DNA of 64,000 bases, from positions 1,798,001 to 1,862,000 of the forward strand of contig JABTUA010000003.1 in assembly GCA_015075635.1 (NCBI GenBank), read 5' to 3'. The notes beneath the pieces were generated by a model. That model did no database searches and had not been told where the DNA came from. It saw only the letters and a list, made by a program, of their open reading frames with translations. The translations under genes were made by a program, and so were the position numbers. Positions within the stretch are counted from its first letter, which is position 1. Every line of letters starts with the position of its first letter. Below are positions 42,348-55,588 of this stretch, piece after piece. This DNA is from Polyangiaceae bacterium (GTDB lineage Bacteria; Myxococcota_A; Polyangia; Polyangiales; Polyangiaceae).

Positions 42348-43445
42348 TCAGGCGAGGGCCTCCGGCAAGGCCGCCAGGGCGGAGCTCAGCTGCCCGCGAT
42401 CGAGCAGCACGAACTGCTTTTCGAGGTGCCAGAGGCGCACGTCGTCGGGCAGGCGACGGTAGACGCCGCGCACCACGCTGGCCGTGCGCTGCGGGTCGTG
42501 GGGCCAGCGGGCGAGGGCAGCGATCTCGGCCAGCCCGCCTGCGTGGCGCCCAGCGCGCTCGACCCAAGCCGCCACGTGGCCCGCGTCCGCCAAAAAGTCG
42601 CTCTTGTGGCGGTTGCAAGCGTCGTGCGCCACGACCAGGTTCGCGATGCCGTCGTCGGGATGTCGCGCCCAGGGCAGGAAGTGATCGACCTGGGGTTGGG
42701 CTCGGATCGTGCCGGCGCAATAGAAGCACCTCCCGTCTTGCAGCTCGAGCAGCGGCGAGCAGACGGGACGGAGCGCGGTCCGGTCGACGCCGAACAGAAA
42801 CTTCTCGAGCGCTGACTCCGGCAAGTGATTGAGGTGAGTGACGTGTGTGATCCAGTGACGGTGAACCAGCGGGCGAAGCACGCCCGCCAGATCGACGAGA
42901 CTCCGCGACGCGCCCGGGCGGAACAAGATGCGGTTGTCGAACTCGCTCGAGTTGAAGGCCCGCCGCTTGATCTGGTCGTCCCACGCGAGCTCGTAGATGA
43001 ACGGGTCGAGCTCACGCCCCACGCGCTGGAGCTTCGGCAGCGGCATCTCGACCAGCTTCCACTCCACGTCCCGCACCAGCTCCTCGAACCGGTCCGGGTC
43101 GTGGAGCCGGGCCCGGAAGAGCGTGGCGCTCGGATCGGGAGCGTGCCGCTCGCGGAAGCGGGTGATGAGCGTCAGGATCTCCGCCTGGCCACCGCGATTC
43201 TGGAGCGGGATGCGGTCCCCCAGCGGCTCGAACTTCTGGGTCTGGTGCCAGTACAGCTCGACGACCTTCTGCGCCAGCTGCGCCGTGGTCAGCATGGACG
43301 GCGGCGACCCGTCGCGTTCGCTCTTCTCGAAGCACAGGTCCATCAGCCCGAGCAGCACGGCGTATTTGTAGGTGGCGGTGAACCCGCCCTGGTCGAGCAG
43401 GACGATGACCTTCTCCGCGAAGCGAATGACGTCCGGCGTCGCCAC
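42348..43445 (-). CDS. HNH endonuclease
   Basis: The product is 365 residues from a GTG at 43445. The C-terminal third is an HNH domain of the zinc-bearing type: CFYC at 240-243, the catalytic VDH at 253-255, a middle loop ending NLVVAHDACNRHKSD where Asn278 and the nearby histidine complete the motif. The N-terminal 220 residues are helical with GGFTATYKYAVLLGLMDL and do not match a family I know. It is the third gene of the helicase/HIT/HNH operon, starting two bases after the HIT stop. Likely cuts DNA as part of a defence or repair module. Confidence 0.82.
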   Translation of the reverse strand: MATPDVIRFAEKVIVLLDQGGFTATYKYAVLLGLMDLCFEKSERDGSPPSMLTTAQLAQKVVELYWHQTQKFEPLGDRIPLQNRGGQAEILTLITRFRERHAPDPSATLFRARLHDPDRFEELVRDVEWKLVEMPLPKLQRVGRELDPFIYELAWDDQIKRRAFNSSEFDNRILFRPGASRSLVDLAGVLRPLVHRHWITHVTHLNHLPESALEKFLFGVDRTALRPVCSPLLELQDGRCFYCAGTIRAQPQVDHFLPWARHPDDGIANLVVAHDACNRHKSDFLADAGHVAAWVERAGRHAGGLAEIAALARWPHDPQRTASVVRGVYRRLPDDVRLWHLEKQFVLLDRGQLSSALAALPEALA

Positions 43446-43447
43446 CC

Positions 43448-43843
43448 TCAGTACCTTTGCTTGTCGGGGATGACGCCTCGCACGCCGCCCCGAGGATCCG
43501 CCATGTCCCCGCGGAACCGCGGGATCACGTGGACGTGCAGGTGCATCACGGTCTGTCCGGCTGCCTCGCCGGCGTTGAAGCCGACGTTGTACCCGTCGGG
43601 TCGAAGCTCGCGGTCCAGGTCGCGCTTGACCACCTCGACCGCTCGCCAGATTTCGGCCTGCTCCTCCGCGGAAGCATCGAAGTACGTGACCGCGTGCCGG
43701 CGCGGGATGATCAGCGTGTGCCCGTTGCTGACCGGGAAGCGATCGCGGAAGGCGACGACCCGCTCCGACTCGTAGACGAGCGGAGTACCGGCGAGGGAGC
43801 AGAAGGGGCAGGGCACCGCGGGCGAGTCTCGCAAAGCGCTCAC
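43448..43843 (-). CDS. HIT family nucleotide hydrolase/transferase
   Basis: The product is 131 residues from a GTG at 43843, overlapping the helicase stop (GTGA). A CPFC pair at residues 12-15 begins the domain; PVSNGHTLIIPRRH follows. The histidine triad HLHVHVIPR is at residues 101-109 with the nucleophile His103, and GYNVGFNAGEAAGQT precedes it. HIT proteins hydrolyse nucleoside phosphoramidates, dinucleoside polyphosphates or 5'-adenylated DNA. Its place between a helicase and a nuclease suggests action on nucleotides or DNA ends in that module. Confidence 0.9.
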   Translation of the reverse strand: MSALRDSPAVPCPFCSLAGTPLVYESERVVAFRDRFPVSNGHTLIIPRRHAVTYFDASAEEQAEIWRAVEVVKRDLDRELRPDGYNVGFNAGEAAGQTVMHLHVHVIPRFRGDMADPRGGVRGVIPDKQRY

Positions 43844-46800
43844 CCCGACGCCAGCGTCGCGAAGCGCTCGAAGAGGCCCGCGGGCAGGGGATGCTCGAGA
43901 CGCCAGGTGATCGCGATGGGACGGTCACCCGCGTGCTCCACGTAGGACACGGGGCCGACGAAGGCGTAGGGCGCCTTCGGATCCGTGCGCACGAAGAGGT
44001 AGAAAGACCAGCCGTTGTCGGGGCTCTCCAAGTAGCGGCGCCCGGACTCCGCCGAGACGCTGGCGATGCCCTGAGTTTCCCAGTGGAAGAGCTCGCGGCT
44101 GATGGCGTAGTCGCGGTAGCGCGTGGTCGGGCTGAAGTCGCGACCGGACTTGTCGAGCGTCACGAAGAGCAGCTCGCGGCGCTCTTCGGGCAGCTTCAAG
44201 ATGCCACCCTGTGGCGTGCGGCCTTTCTCCCCCGGGCTCACGTACCCGACGGCGGCGAGGATTTCGCGCCGGCGGTAGTGACGGTGGAGCGCCAAGGTCC
44301 AAGCGGGAACGGGGAAGACGTCGTTCGCGGTGGGGACGCGATCGGAGAGCACCTCGGCGAGCTGGACGAGCTCGTCGCGCACCGCCGCGCTCCGCGTGAT
44401 GTACTCCGTCAGCGCTTCCGCGGTGCGCAACACGCCGCGGTGGTGGAGCTGGAACTCGGTCATGAGCAGGCGGCGCCGGTCCGCGGACGTCAGCGGGTCG
44501 TTCGCGCCGTGGGTCAACGCCTGGGTCAGCGAGCGAAGTCGCGTGGGCTCGTCGATGTGGACGAGCCAGCCTAGTCGACGGCTCAGGTCTTCCACTTGGT
44601 CGTCGCGCTCGGCGCTGAGCCCCGCGAGGCGACACAGCGTCGCGAAGCCGCCGGCCTCGTACACCTCTTCGATCTCGCGCCCCGTCGCTTCGAGCAGCTC
44701 GCCGAGGGTCGGCTTCCGCTTCCACTCCGCGGCGAGCTCGGCCAGGTCGCGGGCCAGGTGCTTCGCGCCACTCGCGGCGGCGACCAGGTCCAGCACCTGT
44801 TCGCGCGCCACGCGATCGAGCTGGAGCACGCATCCGCTTGGCAGGTACGGAAACCCTTCGGCCACGGCTCGCCGAATCGCCGCGCGGGGCAAGCCCGCCA
44901 AGCTCGCCAAGAGCGCGTCGTAACGGAACTCGGCGCGATGGCGCCCGACGAAGTCGAGCACCAGACAGCTCTCCTTGCCGCTGTGATGGCGGAGGCCGCG
45001 GCCGAGCTGCTGGAGGAAAAGCGGCACGCTGGCGGTCGGGCGCAAGAGCAGCAGCGTGTCCGCGAAGGGCAGATCCACGCCCTCGTTGTAGAGATCGCAC
45101 GTGCAGAGCACGTTGACCTCCCGCTCCCGGAGCCGTCGTGGCGCGTCGTCGCGCACTTCGTCGGAGCTCTTTCCGTGCACGGCCAGGGCCGGGAGCCCGC
45201 GCGCTGTCAGGCGCTGGGCCACGAACTCGGCGTGCTCGATCGAGACGCAGAACGCGAGCGCGCGAACGCGGCGGACGTCGGACACTCGCTTGTCGAGCTG
45301 CGACAAGATTAGGTCGAGACGCGCCTCGTTGCCGGTGTAGAGCTTTGACAGCGCCGCCAAGTCGTAGCCCGACCGGCTCCAGCGCAGGTGGCGCAAGTCG
45401 GTGTTGTCGGACACGCCGTAGTACTCGAACGGCACGAGCAGCTGGCGGTCGAGCGCTTGGCGCAGTCGGAGCTCCGCCGCGACGTGCCCGTCGAAGTCCG
45501 GCAAGAGGCTCTTGCCGTCCATGCGCTCGGGCGTGGCTGTCAGCCCGAGCAAGATCTCCGGCCTGAGCGCCGGCACGAGCGCCTGGTACGAGTCGGCGGG
45601 CGTGTGATGGCACTCGTCCACCACGACGTAGCGGAAGTGGTCGGCACCGAAGCGCCCGAGCAGGTCTCGCGACACCGCGCTCTGCACCGAAGCGAACACG
45701 TGCTCCCAGCGCGACGGCTCGTGGCCGTCAACGAACAGCTCGCCGAACGCCCCGTCTTTGAGCGCGTTCCGGAACGTCGCGCGCGCCTGCTCGAGCAGCT
45801 CGCGCCGGTGGGCCAGCACCAAGAGGCGGGGCGCGACGCCCAGCCGCTCCGCCTGCCGGCGGTAGTCGAAGGCGGCGATCACGGTCTTGCCCGTGCCAGT
45901 CGCCGCGACGAGCAAGTTGCGCCAGCGCGAGTGGAGGCGCCGCTCGGCCTCGAGCCGGTCCAAGATCTCCTCCTGGAACGGCAGCGCGCGCAGGTCGAAG
46001 AGCACGCGCGTGGCCTCGTCGTCGCTGACGCGCTCCCGCCCGAGCGCCTCGCGCAACCGCCGCCGGTGCCCCTCGTCCGCCGGGTCGAAGTTCTCGAGCT
46101 CGGAGTCGTTCCAGAGGCTCTCGAACGTGCCCGCGAACTTGTCCACGACGTGGCCGAGATCGGCGGCGCAGACCTTCACCATCCACTCTTGTCCGCTGCC
46201 GAGCGCGGTGGCGGTCAGGTTCGCCGAGCCGATGTACGCGGTATGGAGCCCCGTCGCTCGTCGGAACAGCCAGGCCTTCGCGTGCAGCCGCGTCCGCCGC
46301 GTGTCGAACGAGATCTTCACTTTGGCGCCCGGCAGCCGAGCGAGCCACTCCACGGCTTCGACCTCGGTCGTGCCGCTGAACACGCTGGTCAGGAGCCGGA
46401 GCCGCCCACCTCGGCGCGCGAGCTCCTCGAGCGGATCCCGCACCGCCCTGACGCCGCCGACCGTCACGAAGGCGATGAGCGCGTCGACCTCGTCCGACGA
46501 CGCGATCTCGCGCGCCAACTCTCGCCCCAAGCTCGGCTCCGCCGGCCCGCGCGTGAGCAGCGTGCTCGAGGCCAGCGGCGTGCTCGGCCGAGCCGGCCGG
46601 GCGGTCCGGTACAACCCGATCAGCTGTCGGCCCGGCGGCTGCACCGTGTCCTCGGCGCTCGAACGCGCGAGCGCAGGCACGAGCTCGAGCAGCCGGCTCA
46701 GCACCGCATTCGCAACCTCGACCTGCCGCGCCGGGCGCTCGTCCGCCGGGATGGCACCGAGCGCGCGCTCCACCTCTCGCCCCACGTGCCGGGCCAGCGC

Positions 46801-46929
46801 CACGTGAGCGTCGGCCCGGTCGAGCTCACGGAGGTCGCGCGAGATCGCCGGCTCGAGCCCGTCCAGGCTCTCCTCCAGCGCCCGAGTCACCACGTGCTCG
46901 TAGAGACCCTCCGGAAGCGCGCGCGGCAC
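43840..46929 (-). CDS. PLD-nuclease / SF2 helicase / DUF3427 protein
   Basis: The product is 1029 residues, GTG 46929. Residues 130-270 form a phospholipase-D-type nuclease domain with HAKAW (His216, Lys218) and GSANLT. Residues 320-700 are an SF2 helicase: Walker A GTGKT at 345-349, DECHH (Walker B) at 438-442, LGLTATPERMDG, and the QLGRGLRH arginine-finger motif. The C-terminal 300 residues match DUF3427, found on such helicases, with KSGRDFSPTTRYRDYAIS and NGWSFYLFVR. Expected to unwind and cut nucleic acid. Translation is coupled to the HIT and HNH genes. Confidence 0.88.
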   Translation of the reverse strand: MPRALPEGLYEHVVTRALEESLDGLEPAISRDLRELDRADAHVALARHVGREVERALGAIPADERPARQVEVANAVLSRLLELVPALARSSAEDTVQPPGRQLIGLYRTARPARPSTPLASSTLLTRGPAEPSLGRELAREIASSDEVDALIAFVTVGGVRAVRDPLEELARRGGRLRLLTSVFSGTTEVEAVEWLARLPGAKVKISFDTRRTRLHAKAWLFRRATGLHTAYIGSANLTATALGSGQEWMVKVCAADLGHVVDKFAGTFESLWNDSELENFDPADEGHRRRLREALGRERVSDDEATRVLFDLRALPFQEEILDRLEAERRLHSRWRNLLVAATGTGKTVIAAFDYRRQAERLGVAPRLLVLAHRRELLEQARATFRNALKDGAFGELFVDGHEPSRWEHVFASVQSAVSRDLLGRFGADHFRYVVVDECHHTPADSYQALVPALRPEILLGLTATPERMDGKSLLPDFDGHVAAELRLRQALDRQLLVPFEYYGVSDNTDLRHLRWSRSGYDLAALSKLYTGNEARLDLILSQLDKRVSDVRRVRALAFCVSIEHAEFVAQRLTARGLPALAVHGKSSDEVRDDAPRRLREREVNVLCTCDLYNEGVDLPFADTLLLLRPTASVPLFLQQLGRGLRHHSGKESCLVLDFVGRHRAEFRYDALLASLAGLPRAAIRRAVAEGFPYLPSGCVLQLDRVAREQVLDLVAAASGAKHLARDLAELAAEWKRKPTLGELLEATGREIEEVYEAGGFATLCRLAGLSAERDDQVEDLSRRLGWLVHIDEPTRLRSLTQALTHGANDPLTSADRRRLLMTEFQLHHRGVLRTAEALTEYITRSAAVRDELVQLAEVLSDRVPTANDVFPVPAWTLALHRHYRRREILAAVGYVSPGEKGRTPQGGILKLPEERRELLFVTLDKSGRDFSPTTRYRDYAISRELFHWETQGIASVSAESGRRYLESPDNGWSFYLFVRTDPKAPYAFVGPVSYVEHAGDRPIAITWRLEHPLPAGLFERFATLASG

Positions 46930-47367: not shown

Positions 47368-47754
47368 CTAGGCCCTCTCGACGATCACGCCGTGGGAGTG
47401 AGCTGCGAGCGCACGAAGGTCTCTGACGTCGGACGTCAGGACGACCCCGTCTGGCTCGGCCGACGCGACGACGAGCGCGTCGACCGCCGAGCCTCGGCGC
47501 GCGGCGAAGCGCAACGCAGCCGCCCGACGCGCGAGGACCTCGGAGACGCGCTCCTCGACGTTGCACGTCCGGAGCAGGCGGTTCACGTTGGCGTCGCGAC
47601 CGGAGTGGCCGGTCAGGCATTCGATGAGCACTGGGCCTGGCACGAGCGGAGGCCAAAGCTCCTCGCGACGGAGAGCCGCCAGCAGGGCGCTCGTCCGTTG
47701 TGAGCGCTCGGCCAGGCGGCTCAGGCCGCCCGAATCCAAGACGAAGATCGGCAT
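47368..47754 (-). CDS. PIN-domain toxin, VapC-like
   Basis: The product is 128 residues, normal for VapC RNases. The acidic residues expected for the PIN active site are visible: Asp7 in FVLDSGGLS, a glutamate in PVLIECLTG, Asp in AVDALVVASA and Asp in VVLTSDVRDL. PIN toxins cut tRNA or mRNA at specific sites. The start at 47754 follows the antitoxin stop (47763) by 8 bases. The first residues MPIFVLD fit the family. Confidence 0.85.
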   Translation of the reverse strand: MPIFVLDSGGLSRLAERSQRTSALLAALRREELWPPLVPGPVLIECLTGHSGRDANVNRLLRTCNVEERVSEVLARRAAALRFAARRGSAVDALVVASAEPDGVVLTSDVRDLRALAAHSHGVIVERA

Positions 47755-47762
47755 GGCAGGCG

Positions 47763-48017
47763 TCAGCTCGCGCGCCGCGCCGTGCGACGAGGACGGGTCA
47801 TCCGGTGGACGATCGCGTCGGCGCGCGCCTTGTCTGCGCGGGCCGGCTTGCCGACCTCCTGCTCCAGCTCTCCGAGGTACTCGTCGAGCAGAGCGATCTG
47901 CTGCCGCCGACGTAGCTCGGAGCGCACGGCCTCCTGGAGGAGCTCGGACGGCGAGAGGCCGGTGCGTTTGACCTCGCGATGAAGGTCGTCGGGCAGGTAG
48001 ACCTGAATGCGCGGCAT
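47763..48017 (-). CDS. Ribbon-helix-helix antitoxin, VapB-like
   Basis: The product is 84 residues from ATG 48017 (MPRIQVYLPDDLH); an earlier frame start at 48053 would add residues not seen in the family. The N-terminal 45 residues form a ribbon-helix-helix DNA-binding fold (strand RIQVYLP, helix DLHREVKRTG, SPSELLQEAV), followed by a charged toxin-binding tail. It precedes the PIN toxin gene and should repress the pair's promoter as usual for this class. Confidence 0.82.
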   Translation of the reverse strand: MPRIQVYLPDDLHREVKRTGLSPSELLQEAVRSELRRRQQIALLDEYLGELEQEVGKPARADKARADAIVHRMTRPRRTARRAS

Positions 48018-48022
48018 ACGCC

Positions 48023-48028
48023 TATTGT
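48023..48028 (-). promoter_or_regulatory. Candidate -10 element of the VapBC promoter
   Basis: On the minus strand TACAAT lies 5 bases before the antitoxin ATG, so the transcript would be nearly leaderless. It overlaps the palindrome TGTACA, a possible antitoxin operator. The -35 match (TGGCGA) is weak and lies over the truncated excisionase junction. Confidence 0.3.
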
Positions 48029-48055
48029 ACACACACGCGTCACGCCTCGCCATGG

Positions 48056-48308: not shown

Positions 48309-48397
48309 TCGTCGCCCAGCCCCTCGCGTCGTTCGTCGTACCAGGCTGCCGCGTCGTCGAGCTCGTCCTCGGCTTCAGCGAGGAGAACGAGCTTCAC
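48308..48397 (-). pseudogene. ParE toxin N-terminal fragment
   Basis: The minus-strand frame from ATG 48397 codes MKLVLLAEAEDELDDAAAWY and ends in EGLGDE, typical of the first 30 residues of ParE/RelE toxins. The next residues (RPERQSPMPR) do not fit the family because the DNA past 48308 is the integrase fragment read backwards. The ATG lies within the partner gene (stop at 48375), the standard antitoxin-toxin overlap. The toxin is therefore broken. Confidence 0.7.
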
Positions 48398-48635
48398 GGC
48401 GGGCTTTCAGGCGAGCGGTGATGCGTTCTCGCGCATCTTCCCAGTCCACGAGCCTCGCGCTTCCGTCGGCGACGGCCTGAGCGCGACGATCGAGCTCGGC
48501 GACCCAAGCCGCGGCGGCGTCGGGGTCGGCCTCCTCGTGTAGGCTCTCGAGCAGAACCCGAGCCAGATCGGCCCGAGCATCCGCCGGCAGGGCCAGGGCT
48601 TCAGCGCGCAGTTTGTCCGCGTTCACGGGAGTCAT
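48375..48635 (-). CDS. Antitoxin, addiction-module (ParD-partner-like) family
   Basis: The product is 86 residues from ATG 48635 (MTPVNADKLRAEALAL). It has the pattern of putative addiction-module antitoxins found upstream of ParE: ALPADARADLARVLLESL, DPDAAAAWVAELDRRA, then a Glu/Arg-rich tail with WEDARERI. Its gene is intact while the toxin gene behind it is truncated, leaving it an orphan antitoxin. Confidence 0.75.
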   Translation of the reverse strand: MTPVNADKLRAEALALPADARADLARVLLESLHEEADPDAAAAWVAELDRRAQAVADGSARLVDWEDARERITARLKARREARSPR

Positions 48636-48772
48636 CATAGCGCCAAACATGGTCTTGGCACGACGTCTGGGTCCGCCCAGACCCGGATCCCCGGCACGGC
48701 GGTTGGCCAAGGGGGCAGCGCAACATGGAGCCGGTCGATGCGCTGATCACGCATCAACCAAGCTCCCTGTCC

Positions 48773-48808
<36 letters not shown>

Positions 48809-52316: not shown

Positions 52317-53351
52317 TCAGGAATTCAGCAGCCTCCGGAACGCCGGGACGTAGGACGGAAGAACCAGCGGAACGCGATCGTAGAGTGTCTGCACCACGCT
52401 TGAGAATCCAGGAAAGAGCGTCGATGCCGTAACGCCATGCTCGTCGAGAAGCTGGAGTAGCTCCGGTGCTCGTCCTATCGGCAGGCAGATCTTCACGAGC
52501 CCTGGGCTGTAGTCGCGCACATCACGGAGGAGCGGGTCGCTCGCAGTCTGATGCGCTTGCGCGATGGCTTCATCCAGTGCTGGTGGCGTATATCGCATCG
52601 CGGACGATGGCCCGGTATAACGGTCGATCGTGAAGACCCCCGACTGCGCATGCACGCGCGGATTTGATGCGCTTGGCGTCTGGATCAGAGCGAAGCGCTT
52701 GGAGAAGCCGAAGAGGCGCGCATAGAACGGTTTGTTGAGGCACCAGACGGCGAGGTGAGTCGGCGGCGCAGACGGGCGAGCGCGAGTCGTCGTCGTAGAG
52801 GCACGGCCGTCGCGAGGACCGGTATTCGCTGCCTCGGTGATGGCGTCGTGCGCCGCGAAGTACGCTGCCGAGAGGGGGTTGCGGCTCCAGTCGAGCAGGC
52901 GTGTGGGAAGGCCGAAATGTTGGGCCAGTGCGAACGCTTCGAGGAGGTGATCCGGGGGCCACCACTCGCCGTCTTCGACGCTCCGGTCCATGGGTTTCCA
53001 GAGCGCCTCGTCCGCGCCGTCCAGGTCGCGGATGGCGTTTGACGTCCCCGGCACATGCAGGCCGACACGGTTCGCTTCGGAGACGAAGTCCCGTATCGCA
53101 AGTACCTCGAGACGCAGGGTGTCGCTGCGCGTGCGCGTTCGCCAAGCGTCGAATTCATCGTGGTGCGGCAGTGCTTTTCGGAAAATACTTGGAAGCAGCT
53201 CCCACCGCGCGTCGCCGTGGCCGCGGAAGTACCACGATCGTGGAGAGCTTTTCCCTTTCTTGTACCACCGCGCAGTGCCCGGCATGAGCGTGCGCAAGAA
53301 CTCGACGGGGCGCTCGAAGTGATATTCCCCGATCGGCTGCGGCTTGGCCAT
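52317..53351 (-). CDS. FRG domain protein
   Basis: The product is 344 residues from ATG 53351. The FRG signature is clear: SWYFRGHGDARWELLPSIF at residues 39-57 (Phe-Arg-Gly at 42-44), and AQHFGLPTRLLDWSRNPLSA around residue 150, followed by AVWCLNK. FRG proteins often occur in prophages and defence islands and are thought to act as effectors; enzymatic activity is not established. It is divergent from the DUF2075 ATPase gene with 236 bp between starts, and the pair may be one module. Confidence 0.85.
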   Translation of the reverse strand: MAKPQPIGEYHFERPVEFLRTLMPGTARWYKKGKSSPRSWYFRGHGDARWELLPSIFRKALPHHDEFDAWRTRTRSDTLRLEVLAIRDFVSEANRVGLHVPGTSNAIRDLDGADEALWKPMDRSVEDGEWWPPDHLLEAFALAQHFGLPTRLLDWSRNPLSAAYFAAHDAITEAANTGPRDGRASTTTTRARPSAPPTHLAVWCLNKPFYARLFGFSKRFALIQTPSASNPRVHAQSGVFTIDRYTGPSSAMRYTPPALDEAIAQAHQTASDPLLRDVRDYSPGLVKICLPIGRAPELLQLLDEHGVTASTLFPGFSSVVQTLYDRVPLVLPSYVPAFRRLLNS

Positions 53352-53587
53352 GCGCACACGGTAGTCCACCTGCTGCTCAACGCCATTCGCTGCGGCTCCG
53401 GAGCTGTGCCCGTGGCATGCTGCCCGCGGCTCAAGGCGAACCGGAGTTCGGGAAACGCTTGATGGATACCTGCGCGGCGACCGAAACAAGCCGCGTCAGA
53501 TCGAGTTCATACGGGCGCCCCACGGGTGCGGGTAGGCGGCTCGGCATCGGGCTCTACGCCTGCCTCCGATCCTGGCATGATGCCCAG

Positions 53588-55588
53588 GTGTCGGACCCGC
53601 TCAGCATCGGATTGGCGTCGCGCGCGTGGTACCATGACACACTCGACCGCTTCCGTGCGACGCTCCCCGATGCGATCCTCGGTCGCCTCGTTGCGAACAG
53701 CGCATTTGCTGTGCTGGAGAACCAGCGCGACGCGTGGCGCGCTGAGATCGCGTTTCTCCAAGACAGCCTGGCCGGTCTGAGCGGATCGCTCTTCCTCGAA
53801 TTCAGCATCCCTCGCATGGGTAGGAGGATCGACGCCGTCCTGCTGATCGGCCCCGTCGTCTTCGTCGTCGAGTTCAAAGTAGGCGCGACGAACTTCGACG
53901 CTGCGGCGATTGATCAAGTGTGGGACTACGCGCTCGATCTCAAGAACTTCCATGGTGCGAGCCACCCACTTCCGATCGTACCGATCCTGGTCGCGACCGA
54001 GGCGTCAACCGTCTCGGTTCCGCCGCCGCGAACCGACGCCGACGGCGTCTACCGGCCAATCGCCGTCGACCGCTCCGCATTCCGCGCCGCGATCGATCTC
54101 GTGTTCGAGGGTTCGAGCGGTGAGCCCGTCGACGCGCAGCAGTGGCTCGCCGCTCCCTACCTCCCGACTCCGACGATCGTCGAGGCTGCGCGCGCACTAT
54201 ACGCGCAGCATTCAGTCGAAGCGATCGCCCGGCACGACGCCGGTGCGGAGAACCTGCGAGTCACCTCGCAGCACATTGAGGAACTGATTGCCGAAGCCAA
54301 AAGAGCGAAGCGCAAGGTCGTTTGCTTCGTCACCGGCGTCCCCGGCGCGGGGAAGACCCTGGTCGGCCTCAACGTCGCTACACGTCGCCGCGACGCAGAC
54401 GCGGCCGCGCCAGCCGTCTATCTATCAGGCAATGGCCCCCTCGTTGCCGTCCTCCGCGCGGCGCTTACCCGTGACGAGATCGCGCGCCAGAAGGCCCTCG
54501 GCAACCAGGTGCGGAGAGGCAAAGTCGGGGAAAGCGTGAAGGCATTCATCCAGAACGTGCACCATTTCCGCGACGAAGCGATCATCGATAGCGGCCCACC
54601 CGCCGAACACGTCGCCATCTTCGACGAGGCCCAGCGCGCTTGGACGCTCAAGCAAACGGCTTACTTCATGCGCCGCAAGAAGAACCTGCCGGACTTCTCG
54701 CAGTCCGAGCCCGAGTTTCTGGTTTCGTACATGGACCGCCATGCCGACTGGTCGGTTGTCGTCTGCCTCGTCGGCGGTGGGCAGGAGATCAACATCGGTG
54801 AGGCGGGCATAGATTCGTGGCTTCAGGCTATTCAGTCCAAGTTTCCCGGCTGGCGAATGCACATTTCCTCGCGACTGACGGACGCCGAGTACGCCGCCGG
54901 TCATGCTCTCGACACCGTGCGGAGTCGGCCGGACACGTTCTTCGACGATTGCCTACACCTTTCGGTCTCGATGCGCTCCTTTCGCGCCGAAAACGTCTCT
55001 GCGTTTGTGAAGGCGCTGCTCGACCGCGACGTGCGGACCGCGGCAGCGACGTATGAACAGTTCGCCGACCGCTACCCGATCGCCATCACCCGCGACATCG
55101 AGGCTGCGAAGGCGTGGGTTCGGCGCCGTGCGCGCGGCTCTGAGCGATACGGCCTGGTCGCATCGTCAAAAGCGATGAGGCTGAAGCCGCACGCGATTGA
55201 CGTGCGCGTGGATGTTGACCCGGTGCACTGGTTTCTGAACGACAAGGACGACACGCGCTCAAGCTACTATCTCGAGGATGCGGCCACGGAATTCCAGGTG
55301 CAAGGACTGGAACTGGACTGGAGTTGCGTGACGTGGGACGCAGACCTCCGATTTCATGATGACCGCTGGGGCTTCCATGACTTTCGCGGAAGCAAGTGGA
55401 CGAACGTGAAGCATGCCGACAACCAGCGCTACTTGCTGAACGCTTACCGTGTCCTCCTCACCCGCGCACGCCAGGGCATGGTGATCTTTGTTCCTCCCGG
55501 CAACACCGCCGACCATACCCGCCCGCGCGAGTACTATGATGCGACGTTCGGGTATCTCGCCAAGGTAGGGTTGCCGACCGTGGCGTGA
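53588..55588 (+). CDS. PD-(D/E)XK nuclease-like plus DUF2075 (Schlafen-like helicase) protein
   Basis: The product is 666 residues from a GTG at 53588 (VSDPLSIGLASRAWY). Residues 60-100 contain a PD-(D/E)XK-type motif: RRIDAVLLIG (Asp82) and VFVVEFKVG (Glu95, Lys97). From residue 240 on lies a DUF2075 P-loop ATPase as in Schlafen group 3: Walker A GVPGAGKT near 250-257, Walker B VAIFDEAQRAW, and a C-terminal LLTRARQGMVIF. A nuclease-ATPase of this kind fits anti-phage defence. Codon use is less GC3-extreme than in neighbouring genes, suggesting transfer. Confidence 0.83.
   Translation: MSDPLSIGLASRAWYHDTLDRFRATLPDAILGRLVANSAFAVLENQRDAWRAEIAFLQDSLAGLSGSLFLEFSIPRMGRRIDAVLLIGPVVFVVEFKVGATNFDAAAIDQVWDYALDLKNFHGASHPLPIVPILVATEASTVSVPPPRTDADGVYRPIAVDRSAFRAAIDLVFEGSSGEPVDAQQWLAAPYLPTPTIVEAARALYAQHSVEAIARHDAGAENLRVTSQHIEELIAEAKRAKRKVVCFVTGVPGAGKTLVGLNVATRRRDADAAAPAVYLSGNGPLVAVLRAALTRDEIARQKALGNQVRRGKVGESVKAFIQNVHHFRDEAIIDSGPPAEHVAIFDEAQRAWTLKQTAYFMRRKKNLPDFSQSEPEFLVSYMDRHADWSVVVCLVGGGQEINIGEAGIDSWLQAIQSKFPGWRMHISSRLTDAEYAAGHALDTVRSRPDTFFDDCLHLSVSMRSFRAENVSAFVKALLDRDVRTAAATYEQFADRYPIAITRDIEAAKAWVRRRARGSERYGLVASSKAMRLKPHAIDVRVDVDPVHWFLNDKDDTRSSYYLEDAATEFQVQGLELDWSCVTWDADLRFHDDRWGFHDFRGSKWTNVKHADNQRYLLNAYRVLLTRARQGMVIFVPPGNTADHTRPREYYDATFGYLAKVGLPTVA

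Follow-up and report, generated by a model that had tools for sequence, protein, structure and literature searches.

A SauUSI-like nuclease-helicase gene coupled to a HIT-HNH gene pair in a Polyangiaceae genome: a candidate modification-dependent restriction module

Introduction

SauUSI of Staphylococcus aureus (PDB 7clg) is a type IV restriction enzyme that unites in one chain a PLD nuclease, a superfamily 2 (SF2) ATPase, a helical coupler and an SRA domain, with H119 and K121 as nuclease residues and D858, W868 and Y831 as the proposed 5-methylcytosine pocket (PMC7913695). Here, we describe three coupled genes, called HEL, HIT and HNH, the first of which encodes a SauUSI-like protein. They lie in a stretch of 64,000 nucleotides from a Polyangiaceae bacterium (assembly GCA_015075635.1, contig JABTUA010000003.1, positions 1,798,001 to 1,862,000). 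This stretch is referred to as the window, and coordinates are numbered within it.

The two other proteins also have counterparts in described systems. HIT proteins hydrolyse dinucleotide polyphosphates, and members of the HIT superfamily are known to perform aprataxin chemistry. A HIT protein within a defence operon is known from Thoeris type II, in which ThsC has been hypothesized to destroy a signal nucleotide (PMC8565338). The SBD-HNH enzymes ScoMcrA, SprMcrA and EcoWI resemble HNH in that a DNA-reading domain at the N-terminus precedes a C-terminal HNH domain with a zinc motif, and in sharing a KxxxLL core; the sulfur cavity of their SBD is formed by His116, Arg/Lys117 and Pro165 (PMC6224610).

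Results

The locus consists of three genes, which were called in this G+C-rich DNA by reading frame and similarity:

43840..46929, minus strand: HEL, 1029 amino acids (aa), predicted SauUSI-like type IV restriction enzyme with PLD nuclease, SF2 helicase, coupler and DUF3427/SRA-like domain
43448..43843, minus strand: HIT, 131 aa, histidine-triad nucleotidyl hydrolase, GTG start
42348..43445, minus strand: HNH, 365-aa nuclease, GTG start, partner of HIT across several phyla

All three open reading frames are intact. The TGA stop codon of HEL (43842-43840) shares the sequence GTGA with the GTG start codon of HIT (43843-43841), and the HIT stop at 43448 is separated by 2 bp from the HNH start at 43445. 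An earlier note, made from the letters of the window alone, had read these as three coupled genes for a nuclease-helicase, a HIT hydrolase and an HNH nuclease. Both the arrangement and the identities were borne out, the latter by Pfam matches to PLDc_2, ResIII, Helicase_C and DUF3427 (HEL, each above cut-off), to the HIT domain (HIT, E 1.6e-27) and to HNH_4 (HNH, E 9e-9).

A profile of 12 HEL relatives matched SauUSI (7clg_A) at 477 bits, far ahead of every other solved helicase, with profile positions 123-1002 aligned to SauUSI residues 30-919. The alignment covers the nuclease, the helicase, the coupler and the SRA recognition domain, and is continuous to SauUSI residue 919. Likewise, the PADLOC model mREase_IV (PDLC03659, type IV methyl-directed restriction enzyme) matches residues 112-1023 of HEL (E 4.8e-211). 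Two functional regions were placed:

46276..46284, minus strand: catalytic HAK of the PLD nuclease of HEL (H216, K218), invariant in 12 relatives and aligned with SauUSI H119/K121
43861..44298, minus strand: DUF3427/SRA-like target recognition region of HEL (residues 878-1023), with D940 and W950; Pfam E 4e-19

D940 and W950 align with SauUSI D858 and W868 and are invariant in HEL relatives, and the SF2 motifs Walker A (GTGKT, 345-349), DExH (D438-E-x-H441), SAT (TAT, 464-466) and VI (Q640..R647) are invariant in the 12 relatives. Unlike SauUSI, HEL has about 100 extra N-terminal residues and is joined to HIT and HNH genes. Because of the whole-length profile match and the placed nuclease and recognition residues, HEL is, judged by its sequence, SauUSI-like in every domain. 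Its target would most likely be a modified cytosine of the 5-methylcytosine (5mC) or 5-hydroxymethylcytosine (5hmC) type.

The conserved unit is HIT plus HNH, and not the three-gene set. HNH relatives came from a scan of one-genome-per-species contigs (17 loci) and from a profile search of 377 Myxococcota genomes (about 35 long matches), and were read with 9-10 kb of flank per side; the Myxococcota sample represents a single phylum, many loci are cut off at the edge of a contig, and locus counts depend on the scans used. HIT adjoins HNH in 26 of the 47 non-redundant chromosomal HNH loci, mostly in the order HIT then HNH within 60 bp, and convergently in three. HIT-HNH is also carried by plasmids of Aromatoleum and Polaromonas, while plasmids of the Bacteroidota Hymenobacter and Persicobacter encode a distant relative of HNH and have the order reversed, HNH-HIT. 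The distances of HIT and HNH correlate (Mantel r 0.48, 0/5000 permutations), a result in which co-inheritance is not separated from shared species history. We also noted a myxobacterial-type HIT-HNH locus in a GTDB record titled as a Klebsiella pneumoniae metagenome-assembled genome (L003; loci are cited by L numbers, genomes by G numbers), a label that may stem from an error of binning or naming.

The neighbours of the pair are varied. HIT-HNH adjoins an SBD-HNH enzyme in L073 (match to SBDHga1, 8h0l, E 2e-8), and elsewhere other HNH_2 nucleases, SLFN-g3 helicases with or without MazG, or PLD-only proteins. The SLFN-g3 helicase lies beside HIT-HNH or HNH in L055, L005 and L018, and the PLD-only protein upstream of HIT-HNH in L004 and L015 and of HNH in L018; a DndB-like gene is found beside HNH in two loci without HIT. 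In 10 loci beyond the chromosomal set (8 gammaproteobacterial plasmids and 2 viral contigs; L105, L106, L109-L116), a small class I S-adenosylmethionine methyltransferase, in which no DNA-methyltransferase motif was seen by eye, is encoded near HNH, usually directly upstream. The HNH relatives of the gammaproteobacterial and viral contigs neighbour BREX, type I-Fv CRISPR, or McrBC and type I restriction-modification genes. Phage records gave no HNH match and the viral contigs yielded two HNH relatives, both with the methyltransferase upstream, so the HIT-HNH cassette is not common in phages. A scan of viral contigs for HEL gave a single distant helicase only.

HIT is also found fused to PLD-helicases. 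A sister group of these enzymes (943-1553 aa) bears an in-frame N-terminal HIT domain in nearly all loci read; Pfam recovers HIT, PLD (below cut-off in some), the helicase and, in most, an S24-like domain, and found no DUF3427 match in the seven scanned. The fusions share with the window genes the HIT subfamily, the PLD domain and the SF2 helicase, but they form one polypeptide, usually have the S24-like domain, and are not accompanied by an HNH gene. The 377 Myxococcota genomes contain 71 HIT genes. Long frames (530 aa or more) account for 33 of them; HNH is found at a distance of up to 200 bp from 17 and of up to 5 kb from a further 2, and HEL at up to 5 kb from 1. Of the 18 that are left, some are directly followed by a broken PLD-helicase. 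Fused and HNH-linked copies are intermixed in the HIT tree, whose well-supported branches force at least four changes of partner, and the window HIT groups weakly with the fused HIT of L135, to which it is 69% identical. The single-chain proteins are frequent in Myxococcota (L117-L135, L101:10536-15002), and in three genomes (L101, L123, L156) HEL is convergent to such a gene.

The active site of HIT is complete:

43529..43543, minus strand: HIT active site HLHVH (H101, H103, H105), an HxHxH motif

H101 and H103 are present in 74/74 aligned relatives, and the catalytic triad is intact; His103, which the earlier note had singled out, is the middle histidine of this motif. The solved proteins nearest to HIT are of the Fhit/Ap4A type (E down to 8e-23), with distant matches to aprataxin (E about 2e-4), and HIT is thus classed, by sequence, as a Fhit/Ap4A-hydrolase-type histidine-triad protein. 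It also matches the PADLOC model of ThsC (E 2e-13). In contrast to Thoeris type II, the locus has no ThsA or ThsB, and the partners of HIT are DNA nucleases; no TIR or SIR2 domain was found among the scanned neighbouring genes of the window.

HNH has two parts:

42585..42752, minus strand: HNH catalytic domain with CxxC, H255, N269, N278 and K281, invariant columns; aligned by VIA-align to Cas9 HNH domains
42780..43445, minus strand: N-terminal domain of HNH (about residues 1-222), possibly SBD-like; AlphaFold2 pLDDT 87.9

H255, N269, N278, K281 and C240 are invariant among relatives, and in the AlphaFold2 model (pLDDT, the predicted local distance difference test, 89) the C-terminal part matches Cas9 HNH domains with a VIA-align Z of about 6. 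HNH is an intact Cas9-type HNH nuclease. Its N-terminal domain alone gave the SBD of ScoMcrA (5zmo_A) as top VIA-align row (Z 6.2, root-mean-square deviation 3.8, 141 aligned, target length 158; next row Z 5.5), a Z in the range that a common arrangement can explain. An hhalign run against genuine SBD-HNH proteins from the same phylum placed the cores TYKYAVLL and APHKPVMLL in register, at P 0.03 and with a very low hhalign probability; the controls had P 0.22-0.69. The domain has no Pfam family, no PDB sequence match beyond chance and no significant Foldseek match. These comparisons are suggestive only of an SBD-like domain. Unlike in the SBD-HNH enzymes, with which HNH has no significant sequence match, the sulfur cavity is not kept: by motif register its positions are Tyr26, Lys27 and P/R/D at 148, the histidine being tyrosine in nearly all members. 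Because the pocket residues are not conserved, we do not assign HNH to the phosphorothioate-dependent SBD-HNH group.

The earlier note had proposed conserved linkage of the three genes as its own test. The pairwise links recur, but no genome other than this one showed the exact HEL-HIT-HNH operon, and strict conservation of the operon was rejected. HEL lies near HNH in the window genome (G000), in G111 (1.0 kb) and G159 (29 bp), in L015 and L018, and in L110, a gammaproteobacterial plasmid. The note knew of no named system with this exact trio, and none was found in PADLOC (2023 copy) or in the open-licence full-text literature: PADLOC has no system model combining HIT, HNH and a PLD-helicase, the only matches being mREase_IV, ThsC and generic HNH models, and full-text searches of open-licence papers returned no description of HIT with HNH or of a HIT-PLD-helicase.

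SauUSI-like and related PLD-helicase genes have other companions elsewhere. A NUDIX nucleotide hydrolase gene precedes them in lactobacilli and Hymenobacter; in L137, L146 and L150 a NUDIX (deoxy)nucleoside triphosphate pyrophosphohydrolase is encoded directly upstream, followed in L146 by MazG and an SLFN-g3-like helicase. On a Pseudoalteromonas plasmid (L147:3874-7428), a member of the small methyltransferase family mentioned above is located 1 bp upstream of a PLD-helicase gene. A PLD-only protein of about 310 aa is found beside a SauUSI-like HEL, with neither HIT nor HNH, in L102:10556-11410 and L104:3880-4707, and in genome G158 an SBD-HNH-like gene (L095:4037-4849) shares its strand with HEL at a distance of about 450 bp.

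The surroundings of the trio include the following features:

47368..48053, minus strand: PIN-like/RHH-like (VapBC-like) pair; Pfam PIN E 0.0047 and RHH E 0.0027, both below cut-off
48375..48710, minus strand: Unstab_antitox (ParD-type) antitoxin, PF09720 E 1e-12; its downstream toxin is apparently truncated, as read from the sequence
48774..48804, minus strand: 31-bp copy of the 3' end of the transfer-messenger RNA gene (ssrA), an att-like direct repeat; second copy at G000:C3:1864606-1864636
53417..55588, plus strand: SLFN-g3 (DUF2075) helicase, Pfam E 2.8e-82, a recurrent neighbour of HIT-HNH in other genomes

The VapBC pair that the earlier note placed beside the trio is plausible but weak, whereas the second antitoxin is clear; the element remnants that it mentioned are confirmed by the ssrA copy. 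The intact ssrA gene lies 17.8 kb to the right of the 31-bp repeat, and the repeats bound about 17.8 kb. Inside this stretch an FRG-domain protein and the SLFN-g3 helicase are encoded in opposite orientations (52317-55588). We rejected the location of the trio within this island, since the trio is situated slightly beyond the repeat; it does belong to the larger variable region that extends from a conserved ATP-grasp gene in the left flank to ssrA. That interval measures 27.4 kb here versus 4.8 and 10.4 kb in two genomes of the same genus, in both of which it does not contain the trio. The differing length and the absence of the trio together place it in an integration hotspot.

Discussion

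We favour, with moderate confidence, the view that the locus is a modification-dependent restriction module composed of HEL and a joined HIT-HNH cassette, in which HIT serves a DNA-cutting enzyme. The SRA-like C-terminal domain of HEL would read modified cytosine (5mC/5hmC-type), its SF2 motor would translocate on DNA and its PLD nuclease would cut both strands, all as in SauUSI. The independently mobile two-gene HIT-HNH cassette would have been joined downstream of this type IV enzyme, in a lineage in which HIT and a PLD-helicase appear to work already as a single polypeptide elsewhere. HNH would be an additional DNA nuclease that reads DNA through an N-terminal domain of its own. HIT would most likely remove nucleotide products, nucleotide adducts or abnormal nucleotides arising from DNA breakage, and would occupy the slot that NUDIX, MazG or the small methyltransferase takes beside related enzymes. 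By analogy with NUDIX and MazG, which hold such positions, a clean-up role of this kind is the one we favour for HIT, and the NUDIX genes beside SauUSI-like genes raise the idea, in view of the substrate range of E. coli NudG, that 5-methyl-dCTP may be what is removed. The three proteins may act jointly, cleave DNA, and protect the cell against phages or plasmids. The earlier note had left the choice between defence and DNA repair open. Defence is supported by the SauUSI-like HEL, the variable region, and the BREX, CRISPR, McrBC and restriction-modification neighbours of HNH relatives; what the note had missed is that the helicase belongs to a known kind, the type IV restriction enzymes.

Several observations weigh against this view. 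The glutamate that closes the H(X)K(X)4E motif of SauUSI (E126) is arginine in HEL, and Tyr831 of its 5mC pocket is isoleucine. The closest HELs (L085-L089; 53-62% identity by tblastn, 54-63% in the genome search) have neither HIT nor HNH nearby, and about 18 HNH loci lack HIT as well as any other identified partner. Of the 377 sampled genomes, 10 have both HEL and HNH, and in three of these, the one with the window among them, the two genes adjoin; the exact gene order was found in no other genome. Moreover, since defence genes cluster, adjacency alone is no proof of joint action. Taken with the many unrelated defence genes that HIT-HNH adjoins, the uniqueness of the trio and the solitary close relatives of HEL would fit a situation in which the genes are only neighbours in a defence island, HEL being a stand-alone type IV enzyme, HIT-HNH a separate system, and the stop/start overlap an accident of recent insertion. 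We consider this somewhat unlikely, given that PLD-helicases carry a fused HIT of this subfamily, that HEL-HNH adjacency recurs in other orders in Myxococcota and Gammaproteobacteria, and that HEL and HIT overlap translationally by four bases.

Other accounts concern what HIT, or the locus as a whole, would do. HIT could strip AMP from 5' DNA ends in the manner of aprataxin, undoing adenylation by ligase so that PLD or HNH breaks in invading DNA stay unsealed. Its fusion to or coupling with DNA-cutting enzymes, the distant aprataxin matches and the known chemistry of the superfamily all speak for such a role, but we judge it unlikely, as the window HIT is far nearer to the Fhit/Ap4A type and the aprataxin zinc finger is absent from it. 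It is more doubtful still that HIT turns the nucleases off by degrading a signalling nucleotide or an alarmone. The activity of HIT proteins on dinucleotide polyphosphates, the ThsC match and the published proposal for ThsC would agree with this, whereas the genes examined showed neither a nucleotide synthase nor a sensor domain, and an off-switch acting by breakdown of a diffusible signal would not usually be fused to the effector itself. That the locus serves host DNA repair or stress tolerance instead of defence seems very improbable: although the HEL motor resembles RadD (E 1e-33) and HIT could act on damaged ends, the SauUSI match extends over the whole length including the SRA domain, the trio is missing at the same place in same-genus genomes, and the distribution is patchy, with BREX and CRISPR neighbours.

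Conclusions

Beyond the restriction module that we favour for the window, we tentatively propose, as a possibility that we hold at less than even, that HIT plus HNH (or, in Gammaproteobacteria, the small methyltransferase plus HNH) and the HIT-PLD-helicase fusions belong to one undescribed defence class. In this class, an exchangeable nucleotide-processing enzyme would be obligatory for a DNA-cutting effector, and the SauUSI-like shredder and the HNH nuclease of the window would share one HIT. The HIT/HNH pair may help to flag defence loci absent from present catalogues. SauUSI-like enzymes are currently treated as single-gene type IV systems. If HIT belongs with them, as the fusion suggests, a nucleotide-processing step would be part of such restriction, and the substrate of HIT would then show the fate of DNA ends or nucleotides after shredding.

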